Notes under the pieces: generated by a model
The model's input: the letters and a program-made list of their open reading frames with translations, nothing else
The model's database searches: none
What the model was told of the DNA's origin: nothing
From: a virus
IMG/VR virus record: IMGVR_UViG_3300010370_000113
Location: 1 to 35,081 of that record
Length of the DNA: 35,081 nucleotides
Direction: 5' to 3' (one strand)
Position numbers and translations under genes: made by a program
Shown here: positions 2,459-28,200 of the stretch, in pieces
Layout: the number at the start of each line of letters is the position of its first letter
How positions within the stretch are numbered: the first letter of the stretch is position 1

Positions 2459-2757
2459 TTCGTTATTAGATAAGACATCGTACAGAATTATCAGAATCAA
2501 ACAGACACTGAGATCACAACTCAGAACTTGTTCGTGATTAGATAAGATTCGTACAGAGATTTAATGATACGCACCAATGAGAATTAAGAACTCATAAGTT
2601 TGTTCGTGATTAGATAAGATTCGTATAGAGCATAACAATATAACACTACTGTTATATTCAAACTGATAAATTCATTCGTGTTTAAATAAGATTCGTATTG
2701 AAACTTAATGCGATGTTCTTATACGCGCCTTTACAAATAGAAAAGATTCGTTTATAA
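2459..2757. repeat. 72-bp periodic repeat array in a gene-free region
   Basis: A 28-base element built on GATTAGATAAGATTCGTA starts at 2459, 2531, 2603 and 2675, exactly 72 bases apart each time. A degenerate fifth copy begins at 2730 and a weaker one may begin at 2381. The 44-base segments between copies differ, but three contain a hairpin: CTGAG/CTCAG (2508-2524), ATGAG/CTCAT (2577-2595) and a 9-bp stem (2637-2658). TTCGT occurs twice in each copy, 17 bases apart in copies 2-4 (in the divergent first copy the second occurrence is ATCGT). No open frame of note crosses the array, and 2345-2851 otherwise holds only the promoter at 2782-2810. Confidence 0.8.
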
Positions 2758-2851: not shown

Positions 2852-3019
2852 ATGGCAACTTCTTCTCTCACAGGACAAAAGAATAAGTATCGCATCACGT
2901 TGGAATTAAACGTGAATGAGGATTTTAATCCTCATCAGATTAACTGGAACAAACTCTTTGAACTTGATCGTAATGAACAGGTGAAGAGTTATGTAGAAGA
3001 TCTCAACGTGCGTTGGTAA
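2852..3019 (+). CDS. Small hypothetical protein, 55 aa
   Basis: This ATG-to-TAA frame of 55 residues lies directly behind a strong sigma70-type promoter, so early expression is likely. The sequence has a beta-like start (YRITLELNVNEDF) followed by NPHQINWNKLFEL and ends in YVEDLNVRW. This pattern resembles small unannotated proteins of T4-like cyanophages, but I cannot name a function. No Shine-Dalgarno sequence is visible: the bases before the ATG are pyrimidine-rich (CTTTCTCTCTT), so initiation may not depend on anti-SD pairing. It stands alone, with gene-free repeat regions on both sides. Confidence 0.65.
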   Translation: MATSSLTGQKNKYRITLELNVNEDFNPHQINWNKLFELDRNEQVKSYVEDLNVRW

Positions 3020-3130: not shown

Positions 3131-3360
3131 TTGGGGCAACTTAGTTCTTTATACTTATCATTGTTCGTCGTGAATTGGCGGCAGTTAGTATAAAGAATAG
3201 GCAATTCTTGAGGTATAAGTAGCGTAATTGTTGGCGGTTCGTATAAAGAACTGTGCTATTTTATAGTATTCGCACAGTGATTTGGGGCAGTTAGTATAAA
3301 CAATGACGAATAATGATAGTTATTCGTTGTCAGTTGTTTATTCGTGTTGGCAGTTATTAT
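3131..3360. repeat. Repeated TTGGGGCAGTTAGTATAAA motif
   Basis: Copies start at 3175, 3231 and 3282; the core GTATAAA(G/C)AA lies at 3188, 3241 and 3294, exactly 53 bases apart. A copy at 3131 has TTGGGGCA in the same direction but the TATAAAGAA core inverted (3145-3154). A shorter version, TTGGCAGTTATTATG, starts at 3347. A 7-bp stem (3250-3256 with 3272-3278) lies between the second and third copies. The gene-free stretch 3020-3489 holds nothing else I can support. Confidence 0.7.
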
Positions 3361-4039: not shown

Positions 4040-4516
4040 ATGCTTTTGTTGGACAGATTTTATGACAAACTTCCCGATATTCTTGATGAAGAATCTTGCT
4101 GGGAATGGAAAGGAGCAATAGATAGGTATGGATATGGTGCTTTTTCTATTGGAAAAAAGACAGTAAAAGCACACAGAATATCATACGAAGTTTTCTATGC
4201 AGAACCGCTGAATGATCTTTTATGTTTACATAAATGCGACAATCGTAGATGTGTAAATCCTCAACATCTATTTGCAGGAACAAATCTCGTTAATATGAGA
4301 GATAAAGTTCAGAAAAATAGATGTTATAGTGGAGACCAGAAGGGGGAAAATAATGGGGCATCAAAACTTACTGACAATCAGGTAAGAGAAATTAGACAAT
4401 TGTATAATTCTGGAAAATATACAAAATCACAACTTGGAAAAATGTATAAAGTCCATCGAACTACAATTTATTATATTGTAAATAAAAAAACTTATAAGCA
4501 TATCTTGGAGGGTTGA
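4040..4516 (+). CDS. HNH homing endonuclease with C-terminal HTH
   Basis: This 158-residue protein has the layout of free-standing HNH_3-type homing endonucleases. The N-terminal CWEWKGAIDRYGYG (20-33) is followed by AHRISYE (44-50) with the first catalytic-region histidine, then LHKCDNRRCVNPQHLFAGT (63-81), the core with H64, C66, C71, N73 and H76. Residues from about 107 on (LTDNQVREIRQLY, then SQLGKMYKVHRTTIYYIV) form a helix-turn-helix that would bind the target site. It has its own sigma70-type promoter overlapping the end of the gene before it. Its last codons contain GGAGG (4507-4511), the Shine-Dalgarno sequence of the next gene, so it sits in the operon without cutting off the downstream gene. 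It appears intact. Confidence 0.92.
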   Translation: MLLLDRFYDKLPDILDEESCWEWKGAIDRYGYGAFSIGKKTVKAHRISYEVFYAEPLNDLLCLHKCDNRRCVNPQHLFAGTNLVNMRDKVQKNRCYSGDQKGENNGASKLTDNQVREIRQLYNSGKYTKSQLGKMYKVHRTTIYYIVNKKTYKHILEG

Positions 4517-6026: not shown

Positions 6027-6428
6027 ATGCCTTTACAGAGGGTAAGTCAGGGATTTAAAGATATTAGTATGTCATTTCAGAGCAACCCTCTGACAAATGA
6101 CCTGATTGCCCTCAAAAATGAGTCTGCAATTGCTCGCTCGGTTCGTAATATTGTATTTACTTTACCTGGCGAAAAGTTTTTTAATCCAAATTTTGGATCT
6201 AGGGTAAGTAAATCATTATTTGAGAATATTGATCAAATTTCTGCTTCAATTATTGATGATGAAATTAGAAATTCTATTGCCAATTATGAGCCTAGAGTCA
6301 GTTTAATTGATGTTCGAGTAAATCCCGATTATGACAATGGTGGGTTTGATGTTATTATCATTTATAGAATCGTTGGTATTGATGTTCCAACGCAACAATT
6401 ACAATTTGTTCTGCAACCTACTAGGTAA
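6027..6428 (+). CDS. 25: Baseplate wedge subunit gp25
   Basis: This 133-residue protein has the size and sequence of T4 gp25, the lysozyme-like-fold wedge subunit that touches the tail sheath and helps start its assembly. The region NDLIALKNESAIARSVRNI followed by LPGEKFFNPNFGSRVSKSLF is the hallmark of the family (T4 gp25/phage W family, with the loop FxPxFGS). The second half ends in IDVPTQQLQFVLQPTR. It is the first gene of the baseplate block, preceded by a late promoter, and gp6 follows without a gap. In T4, gp25, gp6 and gp53 form the inner wedge. Confidence 0.95.
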   Translation: MPLQRVSQGFKDISMSFQSNPLTNDLIALKNESAIARSVRNIVFTLPGEKFFNPNFGSRVSKSLFENIDQISASIIDDEIRNSIANYEPRVSLIDVRVNPDYDNGGFDVIIIYRIVGIDVPTQQLQFVLQPTR

Positions 6429-8370: not shown

Positions 8371-11300
8371 ATGACAGAAAAAAGAATTCAGTTTAATAAC
8401 ATCATCCAGAATCAACTTCCAGCATATATTAGGGAGGAGGTTCCATTAATTGCTGAGTTTTTAAGGCAGTATTACATTTCTCAAGAATTCCAGAGTGCTT
8501 CGACCGATTTAATTCAGAATATTGATCAATACTTAAAATTAGATACTATCAAGAGTAATGCAGAATCAACAACTCTTTTCAGAGACATTACTTTTCTTGA
8601 AGAATCAATTCCAGTATCTAATACACTAGGATTTCCAGATTCTTATGGATTAATTCAGATAGATGATGAAATAATCACATATACTGAAAAAAGAGAAAAT
8701 AAATTAGAAGGAACTGCAAATATTTCGGTTGGATCTACTGTAGTTTTTTATAATGGATTATCTGAAAATTATATTGGTAGAGAATTTAAATTTAAATCTC
8801 CTATTGGAGATACGACAGGAAATCAAATAAAGAATCCAATAATAGTATCTGTATCTGATAGTTATTTCACATTATCCTCTATTGGAATAGCATCTACTAG
8901 TGTCTATGGATATAAAGACGATGACTTATATCCATTTGAAACGAGTGATCCTCAATTTAGTGGGTGTATAAGAGGATTTAGTGGTACAGCATCCTATGGA
9001 AATACAAATGTTGGAATAGCATCAACATTTAAATTGCGATCTCAAGATCAATTAATTTTTAAAGATTCAGAATCTGCAGATCATAGTAAGAAAAATGCTG
9101 ATGGAACTCCTAAAAATGTCATTAATCTAAGTTCCCTTTTCTTAAAAGAGTTCTTCAATAAAATTAAATACCAATTAACACCTGGTTTCGAGCAAAGAGA
9201 GTTTTATAGTTCTTTAGATAAGTATCTGTTCCTTAAACAATCAAAAGATTTTTACTCTACAAAAGGAACGGATCTTTCCTTCCAAATTTTATTCAAAGTA
9301 TTGTATGGCGAAGACGTTAAAATTATAAAACCACAAGATTATCTGATAAAACCATCAGATTCTCAATATGAAATAACTAATGATCTAGTTGTAGAAAGTA
9401 TTTCTGGAAGTCCATATGACTTGGAAAGATCTACATTATATCAAGATGCATATGGAGATATATCTAAAGGTTATGCACCAATAACTAGAGTAGAAAAGAT
9501 TTTTGCAAAGTCTGATAAAGTATATTATAAATTAAGTATTGATGCGGGTTACAATAGAGATATCAATGTTGATGGTTCTCTTTATGGAAACTTTTCAATT
9601 CATCCAAAAACAAGACTTATTGGTAATGTAGTTTCTGGAACTAATACTTTAGATGTAGATTCTACTGTAGGATTTCCCTTACAAGGAGAATTATCAGTAA
9701 TTTATAATGACGGAACTGAAGGAATTATTACATATACTTCAAAGAGTCTAAATCAATTCTTTGGATGCCAAAATATCATAAAATCAATTTCAGATGCAAG
9801 TGATGTTTGGTTAAATGTTTATGCTTATGGCACATCAAATAAAAATTCAAATGAAGTTATTAAAGTAAGAATTACATCCGTTCTTAAAGATTTAGAAATT
9901 GTAGATGATACTTATTATTATAATAATCAAGACACTGGTATTATTAGAACTCTTGGCGTAAACCCAGAAGATGCTGTAGTTTCCAATAATTGGATCTTTA
10001 ATAACTCATTATCAATTGAGGTATCTTCAATAACTCTAATTGATAGTACAAATGGAACATATCGATTGGTAACAAAGGTTGATCACGGATTTAGAGTTGG
10101 TGATAACATAAAAATTAATTCAAATAATGGAATTTCAACCCCATCATCAATCACTAATATAGTTTCCGATAACACCATTGAAATTAGTGGTCAGGGGAAT
10201 CTTAATTTAAATGCATCATATTCAATTCAAAGAAATTTACTTAAGGTTAATTCTTCAAAGTATTCTTACTTATCAAATCAAACTACTGATATTCAGAACA
10301 TTTATAAGATTAAAGATAAAACTCTCGTAGCATCTTCATCTCTGCCATCTTATGCAAGTCAGTCTTTAAATGCTTTTGATAGATCTGTTTTATTCAAAGG
10401 GACTTTTATAAATACTGAACTTTCTGGTTATCCAGGACTTACTGACACAATTAATTTGGGATTGGATCATGGATTTTACACTGGAGACAGTATATATTAT
10501 ACGCCATCATCTAAAGATGATTCTTTGTTTGATGAAGGAGTATATATCGTCCAAAGAGTAAACCAAACTACGATTAGATTTGCAAAAAGCAGAGAAAATA
10601 TTTACAAATCTATTAAAGAAAATAAAAATTATTTTGTTAAATTTAAAAGTTCTATCGAATTAAAAAATAATAGCAAAATACAGGATTATGATTTTTATTT
10701 AAAAAAATTAGATTCTCAAAAACTTTTAAGGGAAATCAATCCCCCAGTTAATGATGGAAGAGACTACGAAACAACTCCAGGAACTGTGGGAATTTTAATT
10801 AATGGCGTAGAAATATTAAACTACAAGTCAAAGGATAAAATTTACTACGATTCAATAGAAAATATTAATATTATTAATTCTGGTTCTGGATATGACATTA
10901 TTAACCCACCAACACTGGTAATAACAGATTCTGTTGGAACTGGAGCAACAGGTTATTGTGCGGTTAAAGGTTCTCTTCAAGAAATCCGAATTGTAGATCC
11001 TGGATTTGGTTATTTAGAAACTCCGAAAATTAATATCAGTGGCGGAAATGGAATTGGGGCAAAGGCAAATGCATCAATGAAGTTAATTGATCATAAAGTA
11101 TCATTTAATTCAGAATCTAAATCGGCGTTTGTCAATATTGCAAATAGCACCATTGGATTTTCCACTTATCATAAATTTAGAAATGCGGAGAAAGTAATAT
11201 ACAGAACTAATGCCCAAAAATCAGTAGGTGGCATTTCTACAAATTCTTCATACTATGTTTCTGTAAAGGATTTATTTACAATCAAATTACATAAAACTTA

Positions 11301-14300
11301 TGCTGATGCTTTAGTTGGAGTTAATACTGTAACATTTACTTCTTTTGGCGTAGGAAATCATGATTTAGAATCTGTTAATAAAAAATCAGTAATAGCATCA
11401 ATTAATATAGAAAACAGTGGATTGAATTATGAAAATAAAAAAAGAACTGTGAGTTCTTCTGGCATTAGTACGTCACTTGGACATATTTCTATAAAAAATC
11501 ACGACTATCAATCAGGCGAAATTATTAGATACACTACAAGTGGATCACCAATTAGTGGTTTAACCTCGAATACAAATTATTATGTAACTAAAGTTGATGA
11601 TAATAATTTTAAACTTTCTCTAGTTGGAGTAGGAACTGATAATCAAGATTTTTATTATAAAACCAGTCAGTATATTCAATTAAATTCAACTGGATCCGGT
11701 ATTCATGCTTTCAATTATCCTCAAATAAGTGTGGAAGTTGTTGGAAGTGTTGGCATATCATCTTCATTCAAAGCAACAATTCAACCAATTTTTAGAGGAG
11801 AAGTCACCTCTGTTTACTTAGAAAACAATGGTGTTGGTTATGGATCATCTGAAATTATTAATTTCAATAGAATTCCAAACACAACTTTAAATAGTGGATC
11901 TGAAGCGCAACTCCTTCCTATAATCAATGATGGAAAGATCGTTGATATTTTAATCAATAATCCAGGAAGAGATTATAATTCTCCCCCAAATTTAAATATT
12001 TCGACAGGAGGAAATGGATCAGGTGCTGTTTTAACTCCCATATTAGAAAATGGACAGATTAAATCAATTAAAATTATTGAAAGTGGTTCAGGATATGATC
12101 CAAATAATACTTTTATTACTGTATCGTCGGCAGGTGTAGGTGTCGAACTAGACGCAAAACTAAAATCTTGGACAATTAATCTTTTTGCAAAATATTTTAA
12201 CAAAATAACACCTGATGATGGATTTGTTTTCTACAATTCCAATTCAAAATATGGATTGCAGTACACGCATTTATATGCACCAAGAAATCTAAGAGAGAAT
12301 ATTTATGCAAAAGAGAATAGCGGGAAAACTCTTTATGGTACATTTGATTTAATACGACAAAATGGCATTGAAGTTTCTTCCACTAAACATTCCCCAATAA
12401 TTGGGTGGGCATATGACGGAAACCCAATATATGGTCCATATGGATTTTCAAGTAAAAGTGGGGGAAGTATTTCCAGAATGAGATCTGGTTATATTTTTAA
12501 TTCTTTAGTAAATAGACCACCATTTCCAATCGGATTTTTCGTTGAAGATTATGAATACAAAAATGTAGATGATGATACTGTTTTGGATGAGTACAATGGA
12601 AGATTTTGTGTTACTCCAGATTTTCCTAACGGAACTTATGCATATTTTACTACTATTGACGAAACATCTTCAGACTCTTTTGGAAATTACAGACTACCAG
12701 TTTTCCCATACATTATTGGAAATAAATTTAAATCCACCCCAAATGAATTTAACTTCAGTAGGTTCTCAAACCAAGATGATATTAATTTAAATGAGACGAA
12801 ATGGGCAAGAAACACATCACAATATAATTTACTTAAAACTGGTTCATCTTATCCTTACTTATCATTACCAAATGATTTAGATCAAACGATTGATATCAAA
12901 TATGCTTCTTCCGGTTTTATTGAAAATGTTGATATTATAAATGGAGGATTAAACTATAAAGTAAATGATAAGGTAATTTTTGATGATGAAGGAACTAGTG
13001 GGTTTGGATTTGCATCGAAAGTTTCTAGAATTGGCGGAAAAACTATAAACTCTATTAGTGTAGCAAATACAACCATTTATAATGCAGAAATTTACTCTCT
13101 TGAAGGAGGTAAAAATTCATTAATTGTTCAATCTGATTCTCCACATAATCTTACAAATACAGATCTTGTTGCTATTTCCGGATTAAATACCACTTCATCA
13201 TTAATTGGAGGATCATATACTATAGGTGTTTCAACAAATATCCTATCTGTTTCAAATCCTTCTGGTATAGGATCAGTGGGAGTAACTGGAATAGTTACAT
13301 TTATTTCTGTAGGGGGAAATCTTTCTCCTTCTTCCATAAGAGAAAATGATATTTACAGAATTGGAAACGAAAAGGTCAAGATTTTAAATGTAGATAGAAA
13401 TTCATCTAGAATTAGAGTTTTAAGATCTGTTGAAGGAAGTGTTGGTTCTGCCCATAGTTATACTGGTGTTTTGTATGAATCTCCTAGAAGATTCGCCATA
13501 AATGCAGGTGATACTACTTCATATGCATATAAAGCAAACAAAGAAATCTACTTTAATCCAAAAGAGTCTCTTGGCGTTGGAACTATTTCTGGAGTAGGAA
13601 TTGGTTCCACTTTAACATTCTCAAATCCAGGGGTAGGGATCACTCAAATTTTTATTCCCACAAGAACAATTTATTTTCCAAATCATAATTTGGAAACGGG
13701 AGATTCTCTAATTTATTCGACCAATATAGGAACTTCAATTTCGGTTTCAAATAATGGGATGTCTTCGTGGATTCTTAATGATCAGTCTGTTGTTTATGTT
13801 GCAAAGATTACAAATGATTTGATTGGAATATCCACGGTAAAAGTCGGTCTTGGATCTACCGGAACCTTTGTAGGAATTGCTACCACAACTACTTCCTCCA
13901 GTATTCTATACTTTACCGGAATTGGAACTGGTACATATCATAGCTTTAAAACAAATTATCCAAAACTTTCGGGTCAAGTATCAAAAAATATTGTAACTGT
14001 TTCCACTGCACAAACACACGGACTTGCAAATAATGATGATGTCTTTGTAAATGTAAGTCCGGGAATTTCTACTTCAATCATAATCAAATATGATGATACT
14101 AACAGAAAAGTTCTAGTAAATCCAAGATCTTTTATTTCCAGTGATGTTGACGTAATTTCAAATTCAATATTAATTACAAATCATAATTTTGAAAATGGAC
14201 AAAAAGTTGTTCATACCTCAACATCTCCTTCTGGTGGTCTGACTAACAATAAAATTTACTATGTTGTAGTTTTTGATAGGAATACTGTAAAGTTATCTCC

Positions 14301-17300
14301 TTCATACTATAGTGCAACAAGTTTAAATCCAGAAATAATTAATATCACTTCAGCATCAAGTGGAACTTTATCCGCAGTAAATCCCCCAATTAAAGTTTAT
14401 AAAAACTCAACGGTAACTTTTGATCTATCAGATTCTTCTCTTTCATATCTCAATGGATTAGTTAAATATTCTGCATTTGAATTAAACTTCTATATTGATT
14501 CAAATTATACTCAAATCTTCGATAAATCAGAATTTAGTAAAGCATTTGAAGTTACAAAATCAGGAAATGTTGGAATAGATGCTAATGCAAAAGTTACATT
14601 AAATGTAACTGAAGATATTCCGGAAAAGTTATATTATAAATTAGACCCTGTTTATGATAACATTCTTCCTAAAGTAAAAGAAGAAGTTAATATTGATACT
14701 TCTGTTAATGAAAATAATGAGATACAAGTTACTTTTAGTGGATATAATGGAAAACATAGAGTTGTATCAACTTCTTCTACTTCATTTACATATAATCTAG
14801 AAAGAATTCCAGAATCTTATTCTTATAATTCTTCTTCGAAGTTGGAATATGAGACAACATCTTTAACTGCACTTGGACCTATTTCTAGAGTTAATATAAC
14901 ATCAAAAGGTCAAAATTATATAAATCTTCCAAAGTTTTCTTTAGTTGCATCAATTTATGGAACTGGGGCTATTTTAGAAGCATTTAGTAAGTCGATAGGA
15001 AAAGTTAAAAAAACAAAACTAAATGGTATTGGATTTGATTTCTCATGTGACTTTACGGTAAGACCTAATGTTATTTTTCCCCAAATCTTAAAAATTGAAC
15101 CTTTAAATTCCTTAGAGTCAATTGGCATAACATCAGTGGGAAGAGGATACTCATCGTCGCCTGAACTTATTGTTTTGGATGGTTACACTAAGCAGATTTT
15201 ACCTGAGGTCAATCTCCTATATTCTTTGGGAGATAATTATGTCACTATTTTAAATAATACTTATAGACTTAATGATATAGATCCTATAATTATTCCAACT
15301 CAAAATTCTAATGGTGTCGGAATTTCATCAATTTTATACAACTCAACTACCAAAGATGTCACTGCAACATTATCAGTCGGATTTAGTACAGCAAGTGCTT
15401 TCCCATTTGCAGTAAATGACAAGGTATTGGTTGAAAACATTAGTGTAGGAATTAATTCCACAGGAAAAGGTTATAATTCCGAAAACTATAATTATCAATT
15501 GTTCACTATTACTGCAATTAATGCCAATATTGGCGGAACTGGAAGTGTAACTTATAATTTAAGTAATTCTTTGAATAGTGGAGAAGAACCAGGAACTTTT
15601 GATGCTGTTAATTCTTCCGGAAGAATTATTCCAGAAAAATATTTCCCACAATTTAAAGTAATTTTAAAAAGAAATAACTTCTTAAAAAACGAGAGTGTTA
15701 GATATTCAAATCAACCAACTTCTTTAGGATTTGTGAAAGATTGGAATGAAAAAATCAAATACTTAAAAGTTTCTTCAAGAGAAATTTTAGAAGAAGGAAA
15801 GATTTTAGAGGGAGATTCTTCAAAAACTCAAGGAAGAATTTCTTCTGCCATTAAATCAAATGGGTTTATTAACACTGGTTCATATTCAAAATCAGAAAAT
15901 GGTTGGGTAACAGAAACGGGAACTTTAAATAATAACTTACAGAGAATTCAAGACAATTTTTACTATCAAAATTTCTCATATTCATTAAAATCTAAAGTTC
16001 CATATGATACATGGGAAAATGCTGTTGGATCGCTGAATCATACTGCAGGATTTAAAAAGTTTAGTGATTATCAATTAGAAAGTTTTGGATACTCTGGGAT
16101 TAGCACTGATGTAGTTTCTATTGTAGATGCAACTGTAGACCTTTATGGAACTGCAAATTTAAACTGTGTGTACGATTTTGATCTCGCAAGAGAAAATGTA
16201 TTAAATATAGAGTCCAAAACTTTTTCAGATGAAATATTATTTTCAAGTAGAATATTAAAGAACCATTTTGAATCTTTTGGTAACAGAGTATTATCAATTG
16301 ATAATATCAGTGACAAATTTAATAATAATCAGCGTTTCACAAATTTTTTAATTGCACATAGATTTTTATTATCTGATATCAGAGCTCAAAAGTATATTAC
16401 CTATGTAAAGGACAGGCAATACCCTTCACATAGACAATTAATGCTTTTTACTTTATTGCATGATGGCAATGTAGGATATTTAAATCAGTATGGTAGAGTG
16501 GAAACACGCTATGATTTAGGTTCTTTTGATTTTGATATTGATACGGATGAAGGATTAATTCTTTTCTACCCAGCAGATTATAAAAGTAATAATTATAATG
16601 TCACGGTGTTATCGTACAATTTAAAAGATAATTTTGCAGGGGTGGGAAGCACAACTCTTGGTAATATTGTAAAGATTGATACAAACACTACATTCGTCTC
16701 ATCTGGGTCAACCACTATTGTTGGACTCGGTACTACTTACACATCTGCCAAAATATTAGTTGAGATTACAGGATCCAATGGGCAATATCAATTTAACGAA
16801 TTGAGTTTGGTTCATGATGGTACAAATGTTGAATTCATTGATTATGGTCAATTGACAACCCATTCTTCAGATGCTTATTCAAGTTCTGGATTGGGAACTT
16901 ATTATGCATATATTTCTGGATCTGATTTAAATATCGATTTTACTCCAAATGTTGGGTTAGCAGCTTCTATTAGCACTATTCAAGTAGCTATTGCAAATAC
17001 ATCATCGTCTGGAATAGGTACATTTGATATTAAGTATGCTCGATTTGGTGCAGCATCAACTTCAATTGCATCAACATCATCCCCAACTGCAAATGTAATA
17101 TCCGAATATCCTGATAATTATGATGCAGCGTACTATATTGTTCAAGTATCCGATATTACAAATAATAGACATCAATTATCAGAGGTAGTAGTTGTCAATG
17201 ATGATAGTGGTGACACTTATATTACAGAATTTGGAAATATTGAAACACATTCTGGTCTTGGTACAGTTGGTGTTGTTACTACTACAAATTCTACCAGATT

Positions 17301-20300
17301 GACATTTACGCCTCTTCCTAATATTGAAACTAATGTGAAGGTATATTTCAATTCTTTAGTAGACTTAGATGAGATTAATTCACTAACAGAATATAATAAC
17401 AATACGGCATCAACAGATTATGGAATTTATTATGGAACAGAAATAGATCTGAGACGTGATTTTAATTTAACACATGGTGGTATTCCAATTTTCCAAAGGT
17501 ATTTTGATGGAAGTGATTCTTCAACAGTAAGTATAGAATCTAATACTATTAAAATTCAAAATCACTTTTTCGTGACTGGAGAAAGGATTACATATTCTCC
17601 AGGAAATCCTGGAGAAACTTCTGTTGCAATTGGAATAGGATCTACTGATTTTGGAGTTGGAATTGGAACAACTGACAAATTACCATCTTCAATTTATGTC
17701 GTTAAGGTTGATGAAAATAATATTAAACTTGCAAGAAGTGCGGAAGATGCATTAAAATTTGTTCCAAATACCCTTAATATAACCTCAGTTGGTATTGGTA
17801 CTAATCACACATTTACCTCGACCAAACAGAATGCAAAGTCTATTATTTCTATTGATAATGTTATTCAGTCTCCTGTCGTGTCTACATCACTAACAACGCA
17901 TTTAGTATCAAATTTACCAATATCTAGAGATATATTATATTCAAATTCTGCTGTTGGACTATTTATTGGCGATTTAATTAAGATTGATGATGAAATAATG
18001 AAAATTGAATCTGTTGGCGTTAATGGCACAAATTCTATTTCTGTTTTGAGGTCATGGCTTGGAACTAAAGTCAATGCACATGCTAATGGATCATTAATCA
18101 CAAAAATAGAAGGTGATTATAACATTGTAGGAAATACTATAAATTTTGTTTCTTCTCCATACGGAAATGTCCCCCTCAGCACAACAACAAATTCTCCAGA
18201 TGAAAGAGATTGGTCTGGAATTACTTCATCATCTTCTTTCCATGGAAGAGTGTTTATGAGATCTGGAATTGAGGATTCATCTAATGAATCTTATTATAAA
18301 AATTATATTTTTGATGATATTTCTTCTTCATTCACCGGGTCTCAAAAAGCATTCGCTTTAACTTCAAATGGTGTAAATGTATCTGATGTTTTCGAAGATA
18401 ATGCAGTAATACTTGTTAATGAAATATTCCAAGAACCTGGATTATCGAATAATTATACTTTATCGGAAACATCTGGGATAACTTCCGTCACATTTGTAGG
18501 AACTGCAACTTCTCTTGCCTCTGATATCAATACATCAAATCTTCCCATTGGTGGAATAATTGTTTCTGTTGGTTCCACAGAAGGTTTTGGTTATCAACCT
18601 TTAATTTCTGCTGGAGCAACGGCAACAGTATCTATTGCTGGGACTATAGCTGCTATTAGTATTGGAAATAGTGGATCTGGATATAGATCCACTATCCAAA
18701 CACCTACCGGCATTTCTAACATAACTGTAAGAGTTGGTGTTGCAACTTCATCAACAGGAATTCCAAATATTCAATTTATTGGTACTGCAGCAGTAAGCAA
18801 TGGAAATATTGTAAGTATTGCTATAACTAATCCGGGCGCTGGATACACTTCATCTAATCCACCTCGCGTGATTATTGATCCACCAATTTCATATTCTGAC
18901 ATTCCATTAATTTATAGTTCAACTTCATCTGGAATTGGAACCAGAGCAACGATTGATGTTGTAGTTGGACAAGGATCTAGTGTAATTGAATTTGAAATTA
19001 AAAATGCAGGATATGGATATGTGGTTGATGATGTTTTAACACTTCCTATTGGAGGTTCTACGGGCATTCCAACAACTTCAAATTATTTAACTACAAAAGA
19101 ATTTCAAATTTCTGTTAAAAGTGTAGAGAAAGATAAATTCTCTGGATGGTCCGTTGGTGAATTGGAAGCATTTGATAAAATTCAAAATTTATTTGATGGA
19201 AATAGGACTATTTTTCCATTATCTTATAACGGATCAATAATTTCAGTTTATGCCAAAAAAGGATCGCCGATTAATATTCAAGATACACTTTTGGTTTTTT
19301 TAAATGATATTTTACAAGTTCCCGGAGAAGGTTATATATTTAATGGTGGCAGTAATATTCAATTCACTGAATCACCAAAACCAGAAGATACTTGCAAAAT
19401 TATCTTCTACAAAGGGAGCGGAGAAGGTGTTGATGTTATATTCCGCGAGGTTGTTGATACTGTAAAACCAGGCGATGACTTACAATTAACTTACGATTCG
19501 TTTATCGGACAGTCAGCATATCTTCTTGAAGATAAGAGAAAAACTATTGATATAGTTTCTATAGAAACTGTAAATACTAATCCTTATTTTGGTCCAGGAA
19601 ACACTTCAGATACAACACTATCTAGACCAGTGAACTGGTATCGCCAAACTGAAGATTTAGTTATTAATGAAAAAGACGTGACTAAAGATAGGGAATTTTA
19701 TGAACCACTCATTTACCCAACGACTTACCTAATTCAACCTGTTGGGGTTGGTTCAACTGTCGTTTATGTTGAAAATTTAAGACCATTCTTTAATGCAACA
19801 AATGAAAATGATGCTTCAATAACTTTCCAAAATAATGTTACTTTTGTTTCTCAAGATTCTAGAGTGGCAGCAAGCGCAACTGCTATTGTATCCATAGCAG
19901 GTACTATTTCATCGATTAATATATTGAATGGCGGATCTGGATATAAAACTCCACCTAAAGTTTCTATTCAGAATCCAATCGGAATAGGAACAACAACTTC
20001 TACTGCAATTTCTTCTATAACATCAGGTATTGTCACATCAATTTCTATAGTTGGTGTTGTTTCTGGTTACTCATCGATTAATCCCCCATCAGTGCTTATT
20101 GATCCACCAACACTTAATGTTGAAAGTAATAAGGTAGTATCTTATGAGGGCGACTTTGGAATTATTACTGGTATTTCAACAACTTCTGTGGGAGTGGCTT
20201 CTACTGGAATCGTTTTCGACTTCTTTATTCCACAAAATTCTTCATTAAGAGAAGGATTAATCACTGAAACTACGCCAGTAAGTGAGATACAGACTGGATA

Positions 20301-20682
20301 CTACTTTGTTATTTCCAATTCGAATGTTGGAAATGGATTAACATCTCTCAATTCCAACGGAGCAATTGTTGGATCTGGAAAAAGTTTCCTTGATGGAGTA
20401 TATCAAGTCGCCTCTGTTTCAATTGGACAAACCTCTGTAGTGGGTGCAGGATTAACTCCCGTAGCTAAAGTAACTGTTAGCGTTTCAAATTATAATGGAT
20501 TATCTGGTATTGGTTATAGTAATTATTATGGAAACTTTAGTTGGGGGAAAATTGTATTGAGATCAAGAACAAAATCAGAATCATATAATTCTTACACTGG
20601 TGATGGTTATTTGGGAATTTCTACAGGAACAATTTTAACCAGAACAGTACCACTAAAATACTTAGATTACAAATTACCTTAA
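8371..20682 (+). CDS. Giant baseplate/virion protein in the gp7 position, 4103 aa
   Basis: This single open frame encodes a protein about four times the length of T4 gp7 and occupies the gp7 position between gp6 and gp8. The N-terminal part has QLPAYIREEVPLIAEFLRQY and, around 254-345, KIKYQLTPGF and GTDLSFQILFKVLYGEDVKI, which I know from the gp7-position proteins of cyanophages; this part likely docks on gp6 and gp8. Much of the rest is a string of small beta modules: GxGY units (for example at 834, 1237, 3433, 3489 and 3854) and HGFxxGD-like units (571, 699, 1044, 1771, 1937, 3059). A YHYH-like domain (WAYDGNPIYGPYG, near 1345) follows. NFYYQNFSYSLKS lies near 2530, and conserved SDIRAQKYITYVKDRQYPS and GRVFMRSG segments mark the second half. 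It is probably an outer baseplate appendage. Whether it is cleaved is unknown. Confidence 0.85.
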   Translation: MTEKRIQFNNIIQNQLPAYIREEVPLIAEFLRQYYISQEFQSASTDLIQNIDQYLKLDTIKSNAESTTLFRDITFLEESIPVSNTLGFPDSYGLIQIDDEIITYTEKRENKLEGTANISVGSTVVFYNGLSENYIGREFKFKSPIGDTTGNQIKNPIIVSVSDSYFTLSSIGIASTSVYGYKDDDLYPFETSDPQFSGCIRGFSGTASYGNTNVGIASTFKLRSQDQLIFKDSESADHSKKNADGTPKNVINLSSLFLKEFFNKIKYQLTPGFEQREFYSSLDKYLFLKQSKDFYSTKGTDLSFQILFKVLYGEDVKIIKPQDYLIKPSDSQYEITNDLVVESISGSPYDLERSTLYQDAYGDISKGYAPITRVEKIFAKSDKVYYKLSIDAGYNRDINVDGSLYGNFSIHPKTRLIGNVVSGTNTLDVDSTVGFPLQGELSVIYNDGTEGIITYTSKSLNQFFGCQNIIKSISDASDVWLNVYAYGTSNKNSNEVIKVRITSVLKDLEIVDDTYYYNNQDTGIIRTLGVNPEDAVVSNNWIFNNSLSIEVSSITLIDSTNGTYRLVTKVDHGFRVGDNIKINSNNGISTPSSITNIVSDNTIEISGQGNLNLNASYSIQRNLLKVNSSKYSYLSNQTTDIQNIYKIKDKTLVASSSLPSYASQSLNAFDRSVLFKGTFINTELSGYPGLTDTINLGLDHGFYTGDSIYYTPSSKDDSLFDEGVYIVQRVNQTTIRFAKSRENIYKSIKENKNYFVKFKSSIELKNNSKIQDYDFYLKKLDSQKLLREINPPVNDGRDYETTPGTVGILINGVEILNYKSKDKIYYDSIENINIINSGSGYDIINPPTLVITDSVGTGATGYCAVKGSLQEIRIVDPGFGYLETPKINISGGNGIGAKANASMKLIDHKVSFNSESKSAFVNIANSTIGFSTYHKFRNAEKVIYRTNAQKSVGGISTNSSYYVSVKDLFTIKLHKTYADALVGVNTVTFTSFGVGNHDLESVNKKSVIASINIENSGLNYENKKRTVSSSGISTSLGHISIKNHDYQSGEIIRYTTSGSPISGLTSNTNYYVTKVDDNNFKLSLVGVGTDNQDFYYKTSQYIQLNSTGSGIHAFNYPQISVEVVGSVGISSSFKATIQPIFRGEVTSVYLENNGVGYGSSEIINFNRIPNTTLNSGSEAQLLPIINDGKIVDILINNPGRDYNSPPNLNISTGGNGSGAVLTPILENGQIKSIKIIESGSGYDPNNTFITVSSAGVGVELDAKLKSWTINLFAKYFNKITPDDGFVFYNSNSKYGLQYTHLYAPRNLRENIYAKENSGKTLYGTFDLIRQNGIEVSSTKHSPIIGWAYDGNPIYGPYGFSSKSGGSISRMRSGYIFNSLVNRPPFPIGFFVEDYEYKNVDDDTVLDEYNGRFCVTPDFPNGTYAYFTTIDETSSDSFGNYRLPVFPYIIGNKFKSTPNEFNFSRFSNQDDINLNETKWARNTSQYNLLKTGSSYPYLSLPNDLDQTIDIKYASSGFIENVDIINGGLNYKVNDKVIFDDEGTSGFGFASKVSRIGGKTINSISVANTTIYNAEIYSLEGGKNSLIVQSDSPHNLTNTDLVAISGLNTTSSLIGGSYTIGVSTNILSVSNPSGIGSVGVTGIVTFISVGGNLSPSSIRENDIYRIGNEKVKILNVDRNSSRIRVLRSVEGSVGSAHSYTGVLYESPRRFAINAGDTTSYAYKANKEIYFNPKESLGVGTISGVGIGSTLTFSNPGVGITQIFIPTRTIYFPNHNLETGDSLIYSTNIGTSISVSNNGMSSWILNDQSVVYVAKITNDLIGISTVKVGLGSTGTFVGIATTTTSSSILYFTGIGTGTYHSFKTNYPKLSGQVSKNIVTVSTAQTHGLANNDDVFVNVSPGISTSIIIKYDDTNRKVLVNPRSFISSDVDVISNSILITNHNFENGQKVVHTSTSPSGGLTNNKIYYVVVFDRNTVKLSPSYYSATSLNPEIINITSASSGTLSAVNPPIKVYKNSTVTFDLSDSSLSYLNGLVKYSAFELNFYIDSNYTQIFDKSEFSKAFEVTKSGNVGIDANAKVTLNVTEDIPEKLYYKLDPVYDNILPKVKEEVNIDTSVNENNEIQVTFSGYNGKHRVVSTSSTSFTYNLERIPESYSYNSSSKLEYETTSLTALGPISRVNITSKGQNYINLPKFSLVASIYGTGAILEAFSKSIGKVKKTKLNGIGFDFSCDFTVRPNVIFPQILKIEPLNSLESIGITSVGRGYSSSPELIVLDGYTKQILPEVNLLYSLGDNYVTILNNTYRLNDIDPIIIPTQNSNGVGISSILYNSTTKDVTATLSVGFSTASAFPFAVNDKVLVENISVGINSTGKGYNSENYNYQLFTITAINANIGGTGSVTYNLSNSLNSGEEPGTFDAVNSSGRIIPEKYFPQFKVILKRNNFLKNESVRYSNQPTSLGFVKDWNEKIKYLKVSSREILEEGKILEGDSSKTQGRISSAIKSNGFINTGSYSKSENGWVTETGTLNNNLQRIQDNFYYQNFSYSLKSKVPYDTWENAVGSLNHTAGFKKFSDYQLESFGYSGISTDVVSIVDATVDLYGTANLNCVYDFDLARENVLNIESKTFSDEILFSSRILKNHFESFGNRVLSIDNISDKFNNNQRFTNFLIAHRFLLSDIRAQKYITYVKDRQYPSHRQLMLFTLLHDGNVGYLNQYGRVETRYDLGSFDFDIDTDEGLILFYPADYKSNNYNVTVLSYNLKDNFAGVGSTTLGNIVKIDTNTTFVSSGSTTIVGLGTTYTSAKILVEITGSNGQYQFNELSLVHDGTNVEFIDYGQLTTHSSDAYSSSGLGTYYAYISGSDLNIDFTPNVGLAASISTIQVAIANTSSSGIGTFDIKYARFGAASTSIASTSSPTANVISEYPDNYDAAYYIVQVSDITNNRHQLSEVVVVNDDSGDTYITEFGNIETHSGLGTVGVVTTTNSTRLTFTPLPNIETNVKVYFNSLVDLDEINSLTEYNNNTASTDYGIYYGTEIDLRRDFNLTHGGIPIFQRYFDGSDSSTVSIESNTIKIQNHFFVTGERITYSPGNPGETSVAIGIGSTDFGVGIGTTDKLPSSIYVVKVDENNIKLARSAEDALKFVPNTLNITSVGIGTNHTFTSTKQNAKSIISIDNVIQSPVVSTSLTTHLVSNLPISRDILYSNSAVGLFIGDLIKIDDEIMKIESVGVNGTNSISVLRSWLGTKVNAHANGSLITKIEGDYNIVGNTINFVSSPYGNVPLSTTTNSPDERDWSGITSSSSFHGRVFMRSGIEDSSNESYYKNYIFDDISSSFTGSQKAFALTSNGVNVSDVFEDNAVILVNEIFQEPGLSNNYTLSETSGITSVTFVGTATSLASDINTSNLPIGGIIVSVGSTEGFGYQPLISAGATATVSIAGTIAAISIGNSGSGYRSTIQTPTGISNITVRVGVATSSTGIPNIQFIGTAAVSNGNIVSIAITNPGAGYTSSNPPRVIIDPPISYSDIPLIYSSTSSGIGTRATIDVVVGQGSSVIEFEIKNAGYGYVVDDVLTLPIGGSTGIPTTSNYLTTKEFQISVKSVEKDKFSGWSVGELEAFDKIQNLFDGNRTIFPLSYNGSIISVYAKKGSPINIQDTLLVFLNDILQVPGEGYIFNGGSNIQFTESPKPEDTCKIIFYKGSGEGVDVIFREVVDTVKPGDDLQLTYDSFIGQSAYLLEDKRKTIDIVSIETVNTNPYFGPGNTSDTTLSRPVNWYRQTEDLVINEKDVTKDREFYEPLIYPTTYLIQPVGVGSTVVYVENLRPFFNATNENDASITFQNNVTFVSQDSRVAASATAIVSIAGTISSINILNGGSGYKTPPKVSIQNPIGIGTTTSTAISSITSGIVTSISIVGVVSGYSSINPPSVLIDPPTLNVESNKVVSYEGDFGIITGISTTSVGVASTGIVFDFFIPQNSSLREGLITETTPVSEIQTGYYFVISNSNVGNGLTSLNSNGAIVGSGKSFLDGVYQVASVSIGQTSVVGAGLTPVAKVTVSVSNYNGLSGIGYSNYYGNFSWGKIVLRSRTKSESYNSYTGDGYLGISTGTILTRTVPLKYLDYKLP

Positions 20683-22265: not shown

Positions 22266-25200
22266 ATGTCTCAAGTCACAAACCTCAACGTATCGCCATA
22301 TTTTGATGATTTTGATGCAAATAATGACTATTATAAAGTTCTTTTCAAACCTGGATATCCAATTCAAGCGAGAGAACTTACAACTTTACAGACTATTCTG
22401 CAAAATCAAGTTGAAAAGTTTGGTCAACACTTCTTTAAAGAAGGTGCAAAAGTTATTCCCGGAAATACAACTTATAATCAATTTTATTACGCCGTAGAAC
22501 TAAACAATAATTATTTGGGAGTTCCTCTAGATGTTTATGTAGATCAACTCGTAGGAGCAAAGATTACAGGACAAACATCCGGAATTACTGCAGTTGTTGA
22601 AAAAGTATTGTTGTCTACAAATTCCGAAAGAGAAAATGTTACATTATATGTAAACTACTTAAGTTCCAGTACTCAAAATAACTCAACAGTTCAGTTTCTA
22701 GATGGAGAAAATCTATCTTCAAATGTAACTATCACTTCCGGTCTTTTAGGAAATACAACTATTGCTGCAGGGACTCCTTTTGGTACTACAATTGCAAGCA
22801 ATGCTACTTCAACTGGATCTTCGTTTTCAATTACTGAAGGTGTTTATTTTATAAGAGGTTACTTTGTAAAAGTAGACACAGAAACTCTTATTCTTGACCA
22901 GTATTCAAATAATCCAAATTATAGAGTCGGTCTATTTGTAAATGAAGAAATTGTTAATTCTGATATTGATGAAACCCTGAGTGATAATTCTCAAGGATTT
23001 AACAACTATGCTGCTCCCGGAGCAGATAGATTAAAAATTTCAGCATCATTATTCAAGAAAGATCTAACTGATTTTAATGACAACAATTTTGTAGAATTAG
23101 CAACAATTATAGATGGCGTAATAAGAACAAAAAGAGACAAGAATGCTTGGGAGGATGACCTAGCAAGAAGAACTTATGCAGAATCTGGGGATTATTATGT
23201 AACTCCTTTTGATTTAAGCGTTAAAGAATCTTTAAATGATGGAGTAGGAAACAGAGGAATATTCAACCAAGGACAGTTTACTTATGGTGGTTCAACTCCA
23301 TCAGAAAATCTTGCTATTTATCAAATTTCTCCAGGAAAAGCATTTGTAAGAGGATATGAAGTTGAAACGGTTTCTCCCACATTTTTAGATGTAGAAAAAC
23401 CAAGAACTACTGCAACTCTCAATAATCTTTCGATCAATTATAACACAGGATCGACTCTTACTTTAAATAGAGTGTATGGATCCCCCACTATTGGGATTGG
23501 AAATACCTATGTATTAAGTTTAAGAGATTCGAGAGTGGGTATTGCGTCAACAACAGCAGCAGGAAAAGAAATTGGTGTCGCAAGAGTATACGATTTCAGA
23601 TTAGAGTCTGGTTCATACGATACAACAAATTCAAATTTAAATCAATGGAATATTTCCCTATATGATGTACAAACAACTACAGAAATTACATTAAACGAAC
23701 CAATTACACTCAATATTCCAAAAATCTTTAAAGGAAAAAACAGTGGTGCAACTGCATTTTTAAAAAATTCCGTAACAAATAGCAAATCTATAGTTTTATA
23801 TCAAAAGAACGGAGAGTTTATCGTCAATGAATCATTTATCATTGATGGTATTGAGAACAATAGAGTAGCAATCGCAATAACTTCATATGGAATTTCTGAT
23901 ATTAAGTCGGTTTATGGTATTGTAGGTACTGCAAAAACTTTTAATGCAGATACTATTCAATCAGATTTTTATAACGTAGGAATTGCTACTATTAGTGCCT
24001 CTAGTGCTGGTATTAGCACGATTACCAGCACTAATCAAAATTTTCCGGGAAAAATAGTTAAAGTTGGCAATCTGGTTAAGTTTAGTAATGGAACATCTTC
24101 TCTACCAGTATACGCTAATGTTGTCAGTGTAGGAAAAACAACCATATCGATTTCTGGAGTTACTACAGTATCTGGTATTAACCAGGGGGGTCTTCCAGCA
24201 TCTACTATTAGTGTATCGGATTTAAAGATTCTTACAACTAATCAATCTCGCTCAACTGATGATACTCTTTACACAGTTTTGCCAAGACCAAATGTAGCAT
24301 CCGTCAATTTAACTGACGCATCATTGACAATTAGAAAAACCTTTAATGTAACTATTTCGGGGAATCAATCAAGTATAGTTAACGCAGGAGAAAACGAAAC
24401 ATTTTTACCATTTGATGAAGAAAGATATTCATTAATTAGATCTGATGGGAGCACTGAGGTCCTTACTTCTGATAAATTAGACTTTCTTTCTGGATCAACT
24501 CAACTTAAAATTTATGGTTTGGGTTCAAATGATACTGCAACACTGGTCGCAACTTTAAGAAAGATTAAACCAAAATCAAAAATTAAGTTAAAAAACAGAG
24601 TTTCTTCAGTAACTATCGATAAATCTAAGTATGAAGGATCTGGAATTGGAGCAACTACATTAGATGATGGATTAATTTATGGAAATTATCCATATGGAAC
24701 AAGAGTTCAAGATGAAAATATTTCCTTGAATGTTCCTGATATTATTAATGTTTATGGTGTTTATGAATCAAAAACAACTGCCAATCCATCAGCACCAACT
24801 CTTGTACTTTCTTCAATAAACGGACCAACAACAAAAACTGTTGATTTAATTATTGGAGAACAATTTACCGGACAGTTGAGTGGTGCAATCGGAGTATGTG
24901 CAGAAAGATTAACCGATTCTCAAATTTCATTTATTCCGTTAAATGAAAACACCTTTAAAGAAGGCGAAACTGTTACTTTTTCGGAATCAAATATTTCTGC
25001 AGTTATTATAACCATAGATGCTCCGAGTTCAAATATTTCATCAAACTTTAAGTTTGATAATGGACAAAAAGGTTCTTTCTATGGATACGGTACAATTAAT
25101 CGCGCCCCATCATCACCAGAACCATCTAAAAAAATAAAAGTTTATTTTGCAAGTGGATATTATCAAAGTTCTGATAATGGCGATATAACGACAATAGAAT

Positions 25201-28200
25201 CATATCGTGGATTTGATTATAAAAAAGAAATTCAAATTGTAAATTCAGTAAGAAACTCTGACATAATTGATATTAGACCTAGAGTTTCTAATTATACTGT
25301 AGTACAAAATTCTCCTTCCCCACTTGAGTTTTATGGAAGAACTTTTGATGGATCAGGAAATTCTTCTGCAAATATTCTAGCATCAGATGAATCCATTGTC
25401 ACTACGTTTTCATATTATCTTGGAAGAATTGACAGAATTTATATAAGAAAAGACGGAACTTTCCAAGTCAAATATGGTGTTCCTTCAGAGAAACCAGAAA
25501 AACCAATTTCTGTTGATGATGCATTAGAAATTGCAACAGTAACTTTACCACCATATCTCTTTGATATTTCTCAATCTTCTGTTCAATTCCTTGAACACAA
25601 GAGATATAGAATGGTTGATATCAAGCAACTTGAAAACAGAATTAAGAACCTTGAATACCATACTGCATTATCAATGCTTGAATCAAATACTGCAAATCTA
25701 TTTGTTCCAGATGCAGATGGATTAGATAGATTTAAGTCTGGATTTTTTGTTGATAATTTTAGTTCATTGAATTCTCAAGAAAATGGACTTCCATTTGAAA
25801 ATAGTATTGATCTTAAAAATAAAGAATTAAGACCAAAACACTATACTACTGCAATTGATTTAATTCAGGGTCCAGTAGAAGGTTTAGATCCTCAAGCAGA
25901 TCTTGCTTTCGAAACTCCAGAAGGAAATAACATCAGAAAAACTGGAGATTTAATCACACTTGATTATGCAGAAGTTGAATGGTTGAAGCAATCTTTTGCA
26001 ACTAGAACTGAAAATGTAACGCCATTTGTTATTAGTTTCTGGCAAGGAACAATTGAGCTTACTCCAGCAACTGACACTTGGGTTGATACTGTTAGGTTAG
26101 ATGCCAAAATTATTAATGTTGAGGGAAACTATGCTCAGACAATGGCTCTTGCCCAACAGCAGTTTAACGTAGATCCGCAAACTGGATATTCTCCGACAGT
26201 ATGGGGGGCATGGGAAACTAATTGGACAGGTAAAGAAGTTATTGAAACTGTACAAACACAATCAAATACTACTTACAATTATGGATATTATGGATGGCAC
26301 TATGGATATTATGGATATTATGGATATTATGGATATTGGGGATGGAATAGAGGTTATGCAACAACCACTGTCACTCAAGATACATATAGACAAGTCAAAG
26401 AAACTGGCGTTCAATCGAGAACAGGTGCAACAACTTTTGTTACCGAACAGTTTGATAGACAATCAGTTGGGGATAAAGTTGTAAGTAGAGATTTAGTTCA
26501 ATATTTAAGATCAAGAAATATTCAATTTACATCTAAAAATGTAAAACCATTAACTCAACTTTATGCATTCTTTGATGGAATTGATGTGACAAAATATTGC
26601 ACTCCAAAGTTACTAGAAATCAGTATGATTTCTGGAGTGTTTCAGGTTGGAGAAACTGTTATTGGAACAACTAGAGAAACTGGGCTTGGAGAAAATTGGA
26701 GGGAATCTAGTCCTAGAATTACCTTCAGAGTTGCCCAATCAAATCATAAAGAGGGTCCTTATAACGCCCCAACTTCAACATATTCATTAAATCCATATAC
26801 AAGTCAAACTCTTGCTGCAACTTATTCATCTACCAGTAGTACTTTAAATATTGACATATTCTCTCTATGTACACAGTATCAAGGAGAATATAGTGGTTGG
26901 GTTCAGTCGGGAATGACCTTAGTTGGAAAAACAAGCAGAGCTCAAGCAACAATTACAAATGTAAGATTGGTTTCTGATGTTTACACTTCACTGATTGGAA
27001 GTTTTTATATTCCAAATCCAAATATTTCAGTTAATCCTAGATTTGAAAATGGTTCAAAAACTTTTACCCTAATAAACAATACTATTAATGATAGAAATCT
27101 TGCATCAACTGTTGCAGAAGAGAAGTTTATTTCTACTGGAACTTTAGAAACAGTACAAGAGAATATCATTTCGACTAGAAACGCAAGGATAGAACAAAAA
27201 CAGAACATTCAAAATCAAAATGTTTCTAGAACATCCGGTACACAATTAGTAAAAAGTAATGTTATTTCCTCAACAACTAATTGGTATAGATGTCCTTGGT
27301 GGGATCCTCTTGCACAATCATTCTTAGTTCAAGATGAGAGTGGAATTTTCCTCACAAAATGTGATATATTCTTTAAATCAAAAGATGATGCTGATATTCC
27401 CGTATTGTTCCAGATTAGAACAATGCAAAATGGTTATCCAACACAAACGGTTATTCCATTTTCCGAAATTATATTAGACCCAGACCAAGTAAATATTTCA
27501 AATGATGGATCTGTTGCAACTTCATTTGTGTTCAAGTCACCAGTATATCTAGAAGGTGGAAAAGAATATTCGATCGTTGTTGGATCAAATTCCAATAAGT
27601 ACAATGTCTTCATCTCTAGAGTTGGTGAGGTCGATCTATTAACCCAATCATATATATCAAATCAACCTTATCTTGGATCTTTATTTAAGTCCCAAAATGC
27701 TTCAACTTGGGAGGCAAGTCAGTGGGAAGACTTAAAGTTCACTCTTTATAGAGCAGATTTCTTAAGTTCCGGTAGCGTAGAATTCTACAGTCCAGAACTT
27801 TCTCCAGGAAACTCTCAAGTTCCCATATTATTACCAAATTCATTAAGTCTTAATTCCAGAAAAGTTAGAATTGGATTATCAAGTGCTGTTCAAGATACTG
27901 GATTAGTTTTTGGCAATAATGTTTTGCAGCAGGGAACAAACGCAACTGGTAATTATGTAGGAAATGCGGGAATTGCCACAGGAACACTTCAGGTTATCAA
28001 CTCAGGAATTGGTTACACTCCATCTTCAGGAAGTTTTACTTATACAAACATAGATTTAATCTCCATAACTGGAAATGGAAGAAATGCAAAAGCAAATATT
28101 ACCATTTCAAATGGAGTTGCAATAGCTGCTACTGTTTCTACATCTGGCAATGGATATCAAGTTGGCGATGTGCTTGGTATATCTACTTTAGGATCTTCTC

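Follow-up and report, generated by a model that had tools for sequence, protein, structure and literature searches.

An intergenic part of a viral genome carries a short sequence repeated at intervals of exactly 72 bp, which raises the question of whether the repeats act as RNA, as promoters or as sites on double-stranded DNA, and what such sites would serve. The window, by which we mean the whole stretch of DNA that was analyzed (IMG/VR record IMGVR_UViG_3300010370_000113, 35,081 nucleotides), is a 35-kb record with genes of the T4-like cyanophage type. Its gp25-like and gp6-like baseplate genes were located at 6027 and 6429, respectively, and the order of the baseplate genes was as in Synechococcus phage S-SM2 and its relatives.

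Overall architecture of the array

The original prediction placed four copies of the repeat at 2459, 2531, 2603 and 2675 with a period of 72 bases. We found the same four copies (spacings of 72/72/72) and added a fifth, which was detected with a profile built from relatives and lay again 72 bp past element 4. The five copies in the window are as follows.

2459 to 2482, + strand: array element 1, a divergent copy (repeat reading and profile scan)
2531 to 2554, + strand: array element 2 (repeat reading, mismatch search and profile scan)
2603 to 2626, + strand: array element 3 (repeat reading, mismatch search and profile scan)
2675 to 2698, + strand: array element 4 (repeat reading, mismatch search and profile scan)
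2747 to 2770, + strand: array element 5, TTCGTTTATAATTAAAGTTCGTTG (profile scan; absent from the original prediction)

The repeated unit is a 24-bp bipartite element, TTCGTGATTAGATAAGATTCGTAT, and all four spacings between its five window copies were 72 bp. In the profile derived from the relatives, the element comprised TTCGT followed by [GT][AT]TTA[GA]AT, a stretch of weaker conservation and a terminal TTCGTAT, with the starts of the two TTCGT motifs 17 bp apart. The self-similarity of region 2411-2850 was highest at a lag of 72 (0.476, compared with an all-lag mean of 0.290 and an sd of 0.029) and second highest at a lag of 144. Additionally, the word TTCGTGATTAGATAAGATTCGTA was matched by three copies at no more than 3 mismatches, while no shuffled window contained a match. 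The array region had been described as free of genes, and it indeed held no ORF of at least 40 aa.

Conservation of the array among relatives

The original prediction had made its case dependent on the 72-base period being kept in related phages, and we found that the period was kept. Homologous loci were gathered by using as a query the 55-aa protein whose gene follows the array, which yielded 52 loci. Among the resulting 53 upstream regions, the window included, 42 contained at least two elements at a spacing of 69-73 bp, 10 contained no array element, and one (L050) was cut off after a single element. The exact element 17-mer was present in 48 IMG/VR stretches, 26 of which had at least two copies 71-73 bp apart, the other 22 being single matches. 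The 69 spacings measured in 20 distinct arrays ranged from 69 to 73 bp, and 38 of them were 72. Spacings varied less inside an array than from one array to another, with 0 of 10000 shuffles being equally uniform for these 20 arrays, which were hand-picked by sequence difference and of which the related ones are not independent.

We compared the elements and the spacers separately in seven window-clade arrays. Matching units of different phages were 91% identical in the element and 55% identical in the spacer, and the corresponding values for different units within one phage were 89% and 35%. The spacers therefore differ between phages in sequence, yet they are constant in length. Fewer gaps in the array than in the downstream spacer were not seen (0.331 vs 0.274 indels per substitution); this ratio gives no support, so the argument from spacing rests on the constant lengths. 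Copy number changes by unequal exchange, because L070 was one whole unit short relative to its relatives and L086 carried a near-exact, fresh duplication of 71 bp. Unequal exchange may also explain part of the uniformity of the spacing.

RNA, promoter, CRISPR and coding explanations

One explanation, raised in the original prediction, is that each 72-bp unit is a small RNA in a tandem set or a weak promoter; we consider this very unlikely. The predicted hairpins in the array segments do exist, but most were no better than chance when tested against shuffled sequences, the fold z-scores of units and spacers 1 and 2 on the + strand being -0.83 to +0.06. Spacer 3 (z of -2.9) and unit 4 (z of -2.4) folded slightly better than their shuffles, and these two weak exceptions are what speaks for RNA units. 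Neither the window nor any of 17 relatives had an Rfam match, and with folding energies near chance the small-RNA suggestion was not borne out. The suggestion of weak tandem promoters fared no better: none of units 1-4 passed the promoter scan, and the total number of scan matches was without excess over shuffles (12 vs 10.9). Only element 5 among the units had a good promoter match, as follows.

2730 to 2758, + strand: promoter-like TTTACA-17-TATAAT with the -10 box inside element 5 (promoter scan)

Elements of 28 bp that resemble repeats and are separated by spacers of 44 bp also bring a CRISPR array to mind. The original prediction had set this aside, and we agree, because homologous spacers are found at fixed positions: same-unit spacers are homologous between phages (55% vs 35% between units), i.e., they are vertically inherited and position-specific. 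In addition, the elements are degenerate and no cas-like gene was present among the window proteins searched, leaving the CRISPR explanation a negligible probability. A coding repeat, in which 72 bp would correspond to 24 codons, was tried and rejected, as all frames of the window array contain stop codons and spacings of 70 and 71 occur. Among the three suggestions of the original prediction, the evidence favors that of an array for DNA binding, for example a replication site.

Restriction of the array to one locus per genome

The 12-bp core TTCGTGATTAGA gave 17 matches in 7 of the 12 records searched, which include ones of 156, 121 and 95 kb, and every match lay inside an array. Similarly, 4 of 9 records contained TTCGTGTATAA, and its 4 matches all fell within the same region. 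With one site per genome, the array resembles a cis-acting site rather than a dispersed promoter motif. As in iteron origins, a short sequence occurs in several direct copies at a single intergenic locus. In a repeat-density scan that used no predefined words, the locus had the top rank of all non-coding windows in 4 of the 8 genomes (the window record, S-PM2, S-SRM01 and G010) and the second rank in G002, and the G001 array was second behind an adjoining stretch of small ORFs. It took third place in S-SM2 and shared a low count with other windows in Syn9, giving little signal in these two phages. Clustered TTCGTATA words at 40 kb in S-SM2 were rejected as a candidate since they are repeats within a predicted large protein gene.

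A single locus per genome, built of direct repeats and subject to whole-unit copy changes such as the loss in L070 and the 71-bp duplication in L086, might instead serve in packaging or recombination, or act as a decoy titrating away a host DNA-binding protein. We regard such roles as improbable. No terminase or recombinase gene adjoined the array among the window genes searched, which speaks against packaging and recombination; and the 23-bp core TTCGTKATTAGATAAGATTCGTA had no match in GTDB genomes, so no host copy of the site was found.

Promoters and the conserved small gene

The array is one part of an intergenic region with the following further features.

1327 to 1355, - strand: leftward promoter TTGACA-17-TATAAT, 12/12 consensus (promoter scan; stretch conserved across Kyanoviridae)
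1429 to 1472, + strand: terminator-like GC-rich hairpin followed by a T run (sequence reading; missing from the list of the terminator scan)
2782 to 2810, + strand: promoter-like TTGACA-17-TAGAAT before the 55-aa gene (promoter scan)
2852 to 3019, + strand: conserved 55-aa gene, PHROG 12516 (ORF and homology searches)
3174 to 3304, + strand: second array of three 25-nt copies (3174, 3227 and 3280) with a period of 53 bp, downstream of the 55-aa gene

The sigma70 promoter claimed beside the array was recovered by the promoter scan at 2782-2810, and the GATAAG at 2793-2798 is directly readable in the sequence. On the other side of the region, the leftward promoter stretch (1296-1360) holds a block of the GTGATCTTAGCG type, which is conserved across Kyanoviridae in an alignment of 15 phages. 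The marine relatives S-SM2, SynMITS9220M01 and Bellamy lack the array but retain the leftward promoter with its GTGATCTTAGCG block before the small gene. The copies of the second array are of the ATTGGCGGCAGTTAGTATAAAGAAT type, and most window-clade relatives keep them at a period of 52-55 bp; the 15-mer of this array was confined to that place, with 10 matches in 7 of 12 records.

We also observed that the region of the terminator-like hairpin (1418-1527) had a fold z-score of -5.4. The hairpin is followed by a conserved non-coding stretch (1429-1640 in all), and similar sequence occurs at 2140-2330 of L058. The mosaic blocks upstream of the array, for example the 1429-1640 type, differ between relatives.

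The 55-aa protein had no match in Pfam. Its structure model (mean pLDDT of 77 and pTM of 0.49) revealed one short helix and no clear fold, and the core of the protein was invariant across lineages with differing iterated words. Because the model is poor and the core does not vary while the words do, the model and the alignment suggest that this protein is unlikely to be the binder of the array elements.

Element 5 stands 35 bp before the -35 box of the promoter at 2782. This placement introduces the main rival to a replication origin, in which a regulator bound to the repeated sites, as on an operator or enhancer, would act on the rightward promoters, and perhaps on the leftward promoter too, to drive the 55-aa gene and early transcription with no role in replication. 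Two observations make it the main rival, namely the lock of element 5 to the small-gene promoter and the presence of words in promoter spacers. Element 5 overlaps a promoter and lies 35-36 bp before the -35 box in 8 of 8 window-clade regions printed, a lock that an operator would explain just as well. Promoter spacers hold the iterated words in other lineages: as read from the sequences, the spacer contains the CTAGATTCAT word in L097 and L099 and the TCTCGACGAG word in S-SRM01, and TTCGTCTATAAT lies inside the L025/L087 promoter. However, in L088 more than 200 bp of sequence without similarity lie between the array and the promoter, and an operator does not account for the nearby clusters of DnaA boxes or for the additional array on the far side of the gene. 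The stoperators of mycobacteriophage L5 are asymmetric, directly repeated sites, some of which overlap promoters, and the phage array has the same properties; it differs in being limited to one locus with fixed spacing, and no repressor was found. We consider an operator a real possibility, although on the whole a doubtful one.

DnaA boxes near the locus

The only two exact cyanobacterial DnaA boxes of the window were found to the left of the array.

1183 to 1191, + strand: cyanobacterial DnaA box TTTTCCACA, exact (exact-word search)
1215 to 1223, - strand: cyanobacterial DnaA box TTTTCCACA, exact and inverted (exact-word search)

According to an excerpt of PMC4674748, TTTTCCACA is the consensus DnaA box of cyanobacteria. 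In 19 records, 22 of the 43 exact boxes fell in the 1.7 kb that precede the small gene, where 0.56 would be expected by length; this comparison treats boxes as independent and includes two records that are near copies. Box pairs less than 35 bp apart were present in 7 of the 17 reference cyanophage records searched (S-PM2, Syn9, S-SM1, Syn19, S-ShM2, S-SM2 and P-TIM68), at one place per genome. Within these 17, a set of ten reference cyanophages was divided evenly into five with box clusters (S-PM2, Syn9, S-SM1, Syn19 and S-ShM2) and five without. In the five phages with a known gp25 position (S-SM2, Syn9, S-SM1, P-TIM68 and S-PM2), the cluster was located 2.1-7.6 kb before gp25. The order of boxes, leftward CTTAGC promoter block and rightward TTGACA promoter was shared by Syn9, S-SM1 and S-ShM2, and the boxes and the leftward block were present in S-PM2. 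Clusters of DnaA boxes thus recur at this type of locus across Kyanoviridae.

Several observations weaken the assignment of the locus as a replication origin. Of 20 array-bearing records checked, the window, G001, G022 and G025 had box clusters and G004 had a single box, while no exact box was found near the array in the other 15, some of which are fragments; exact boxes are thus absent near most of the arrays checked. The box pair was lacking in 10 of the 17 reference records, and in P-TIM68 it lies near gp25 and 13 kb away from the small-gene homologue. The GC content at the window boxes was 0.31-0.32, like the rest of the region, i.e., not unusually AT-rich. Finally, the GC skew was monotonic and uninformative, without a turn at the locus in S-SM2 or in a 156-kb relative.

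Lineage-specific iterated words

At the equivalent locus, different lineages carry iterated words of their own, and these words are nearly absent elsewhere in the respective genomes. All 6 genome matches of the ACTAGATTC word in G010 and 5 of 6 in G011 fell inside ~200 bp. The ATCTCGACGAG word of S-SRM01 had 5 of its 6 matches in 160 bp of a 240-kb genome, and both matches (2/2) of the TTAAGATTTAAGATTTC word in S-PM2 were at the locus. In S-PM2 (NC_006820, ~19455-19615, locus L141), a long inverted repeat with iterated TTAAGATTTAAGATTTC adjoins three DnaA boxes.

Such a pattern could conceivably reflect an origin-identity system, in which T4-like cyanophages would keep a fixed origin locus and swap its recognition words by lineage together with a putative initiator, although we think this unlikely. 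The words in question would be the 72-bp TTCGT arrays, the ACTAGATTC clusters, the ATCTCGACGAG clusters and the DnaA-box clusters. If true, competing phages, satellites or origin-directed nucleases would be prevented by such a system from exploiting or cleaving the origin.

Proposed function and comparison with known systems

Considering the repeats at a single locus, the DnaA boxes, the divergent promoters, the position before the gp25 module and the lineage-specific words, we tentatively favor, as the best explanation, a reading of the array as an iteron-like, protein-binding array in a conserved replication-origin and early-control region, for which the sequence comparisons speak with somewhat less than even weight. 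The same control region is probably also a divergent early promoter region. In the proposed mechanism, the five directly repeated bipartite sites, each with two TTCGT half-sites 17 bp apart, would bind a phage- or host-encoded protein in double-stranded DNA. The array would be a docking platform and one component of a compact control region, the putative origin, in which the bound protein, together with host DnaA and with transcription that starts at the leftward promoter, might open the DNA or load the replisome.

To our reading of the titles and abstract openings of the literature searched, no cyanophage origin of this kind is described, and the origins of the T4-like cyanophages, an abundant group, are, as far as that literature goes, only predicted. 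A single theta origin has been predicted for cyanophage Syn9, its position not being given in the passage concerned, and the same passage reports that T4-like cyanophages have their own replisome homologues and that cyanomyoviruses are without motA (PMC2984593). A locus of conserved position with DnaA boxes and exchangeable iterated sites offers a concrete origin candidate. A further hint from the locus is that host DnaA could share in initiation in phages with a T4-type replisome.

We compared the phage array with known origins and found partial similarity to each. Like the iteron origins of plasmids and PLE, it groups direct repeats within an intergenic control region, and some of the relatives have DnaA boxes nearby; it differs in its 72-bp spacing, its bipartite TTCGT elements and the lack of a known Rep protein. 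Classical plasmid iterons are spaced by about two helical turns, far below 72 bp, and the spacing of 69-73 bp (69 spacings in 20 arrays) does not agree with this value. In the PLE satellite of Vibrio phage ICP1, as an excerpt of PMC8263062 states, the iterons and the DNA-binding domain of RepA covary between lineages. The phage array shares with these modular replicons the lineage-specific repeat sets at one locus (PMC8263062), and PLE is its nearest functional parallel. In contrast to PLE and plasmid iterons, the phage array sits in a T4-like phage with its own replisome (PMC2984593, same passage). Cyanobacterial oriC contains the identical TTTTCCACA box sequence in clusters (PMC4674748, same excerpt). 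The phage locus differs from it in having two or few boxes, extra arrays and no adjoining dnaN. T4 has transcription-primed origins, oriF and similar, and the phage locus resembles these in having a promoter beside the putative opening region. To our knowledge, the T4 origins are not built on arrays of such kind. Additionally, a MotA-type promoter is not expected in cyanomyoviruses, as motA is absent according to the passage cited above (PMC2984593).

Genes surrounding the control region

Genes for homing-type endonucleases flank the control region, with a GIY-YIG gene at 320-1129 on the - strand and an HNH gene at 4040-4516 on the + strand. Downstream of the baseplate genes, we also found two giant ORFs, at 8371-20682 (4103 aa) and 22266-29771 (2501 aa).
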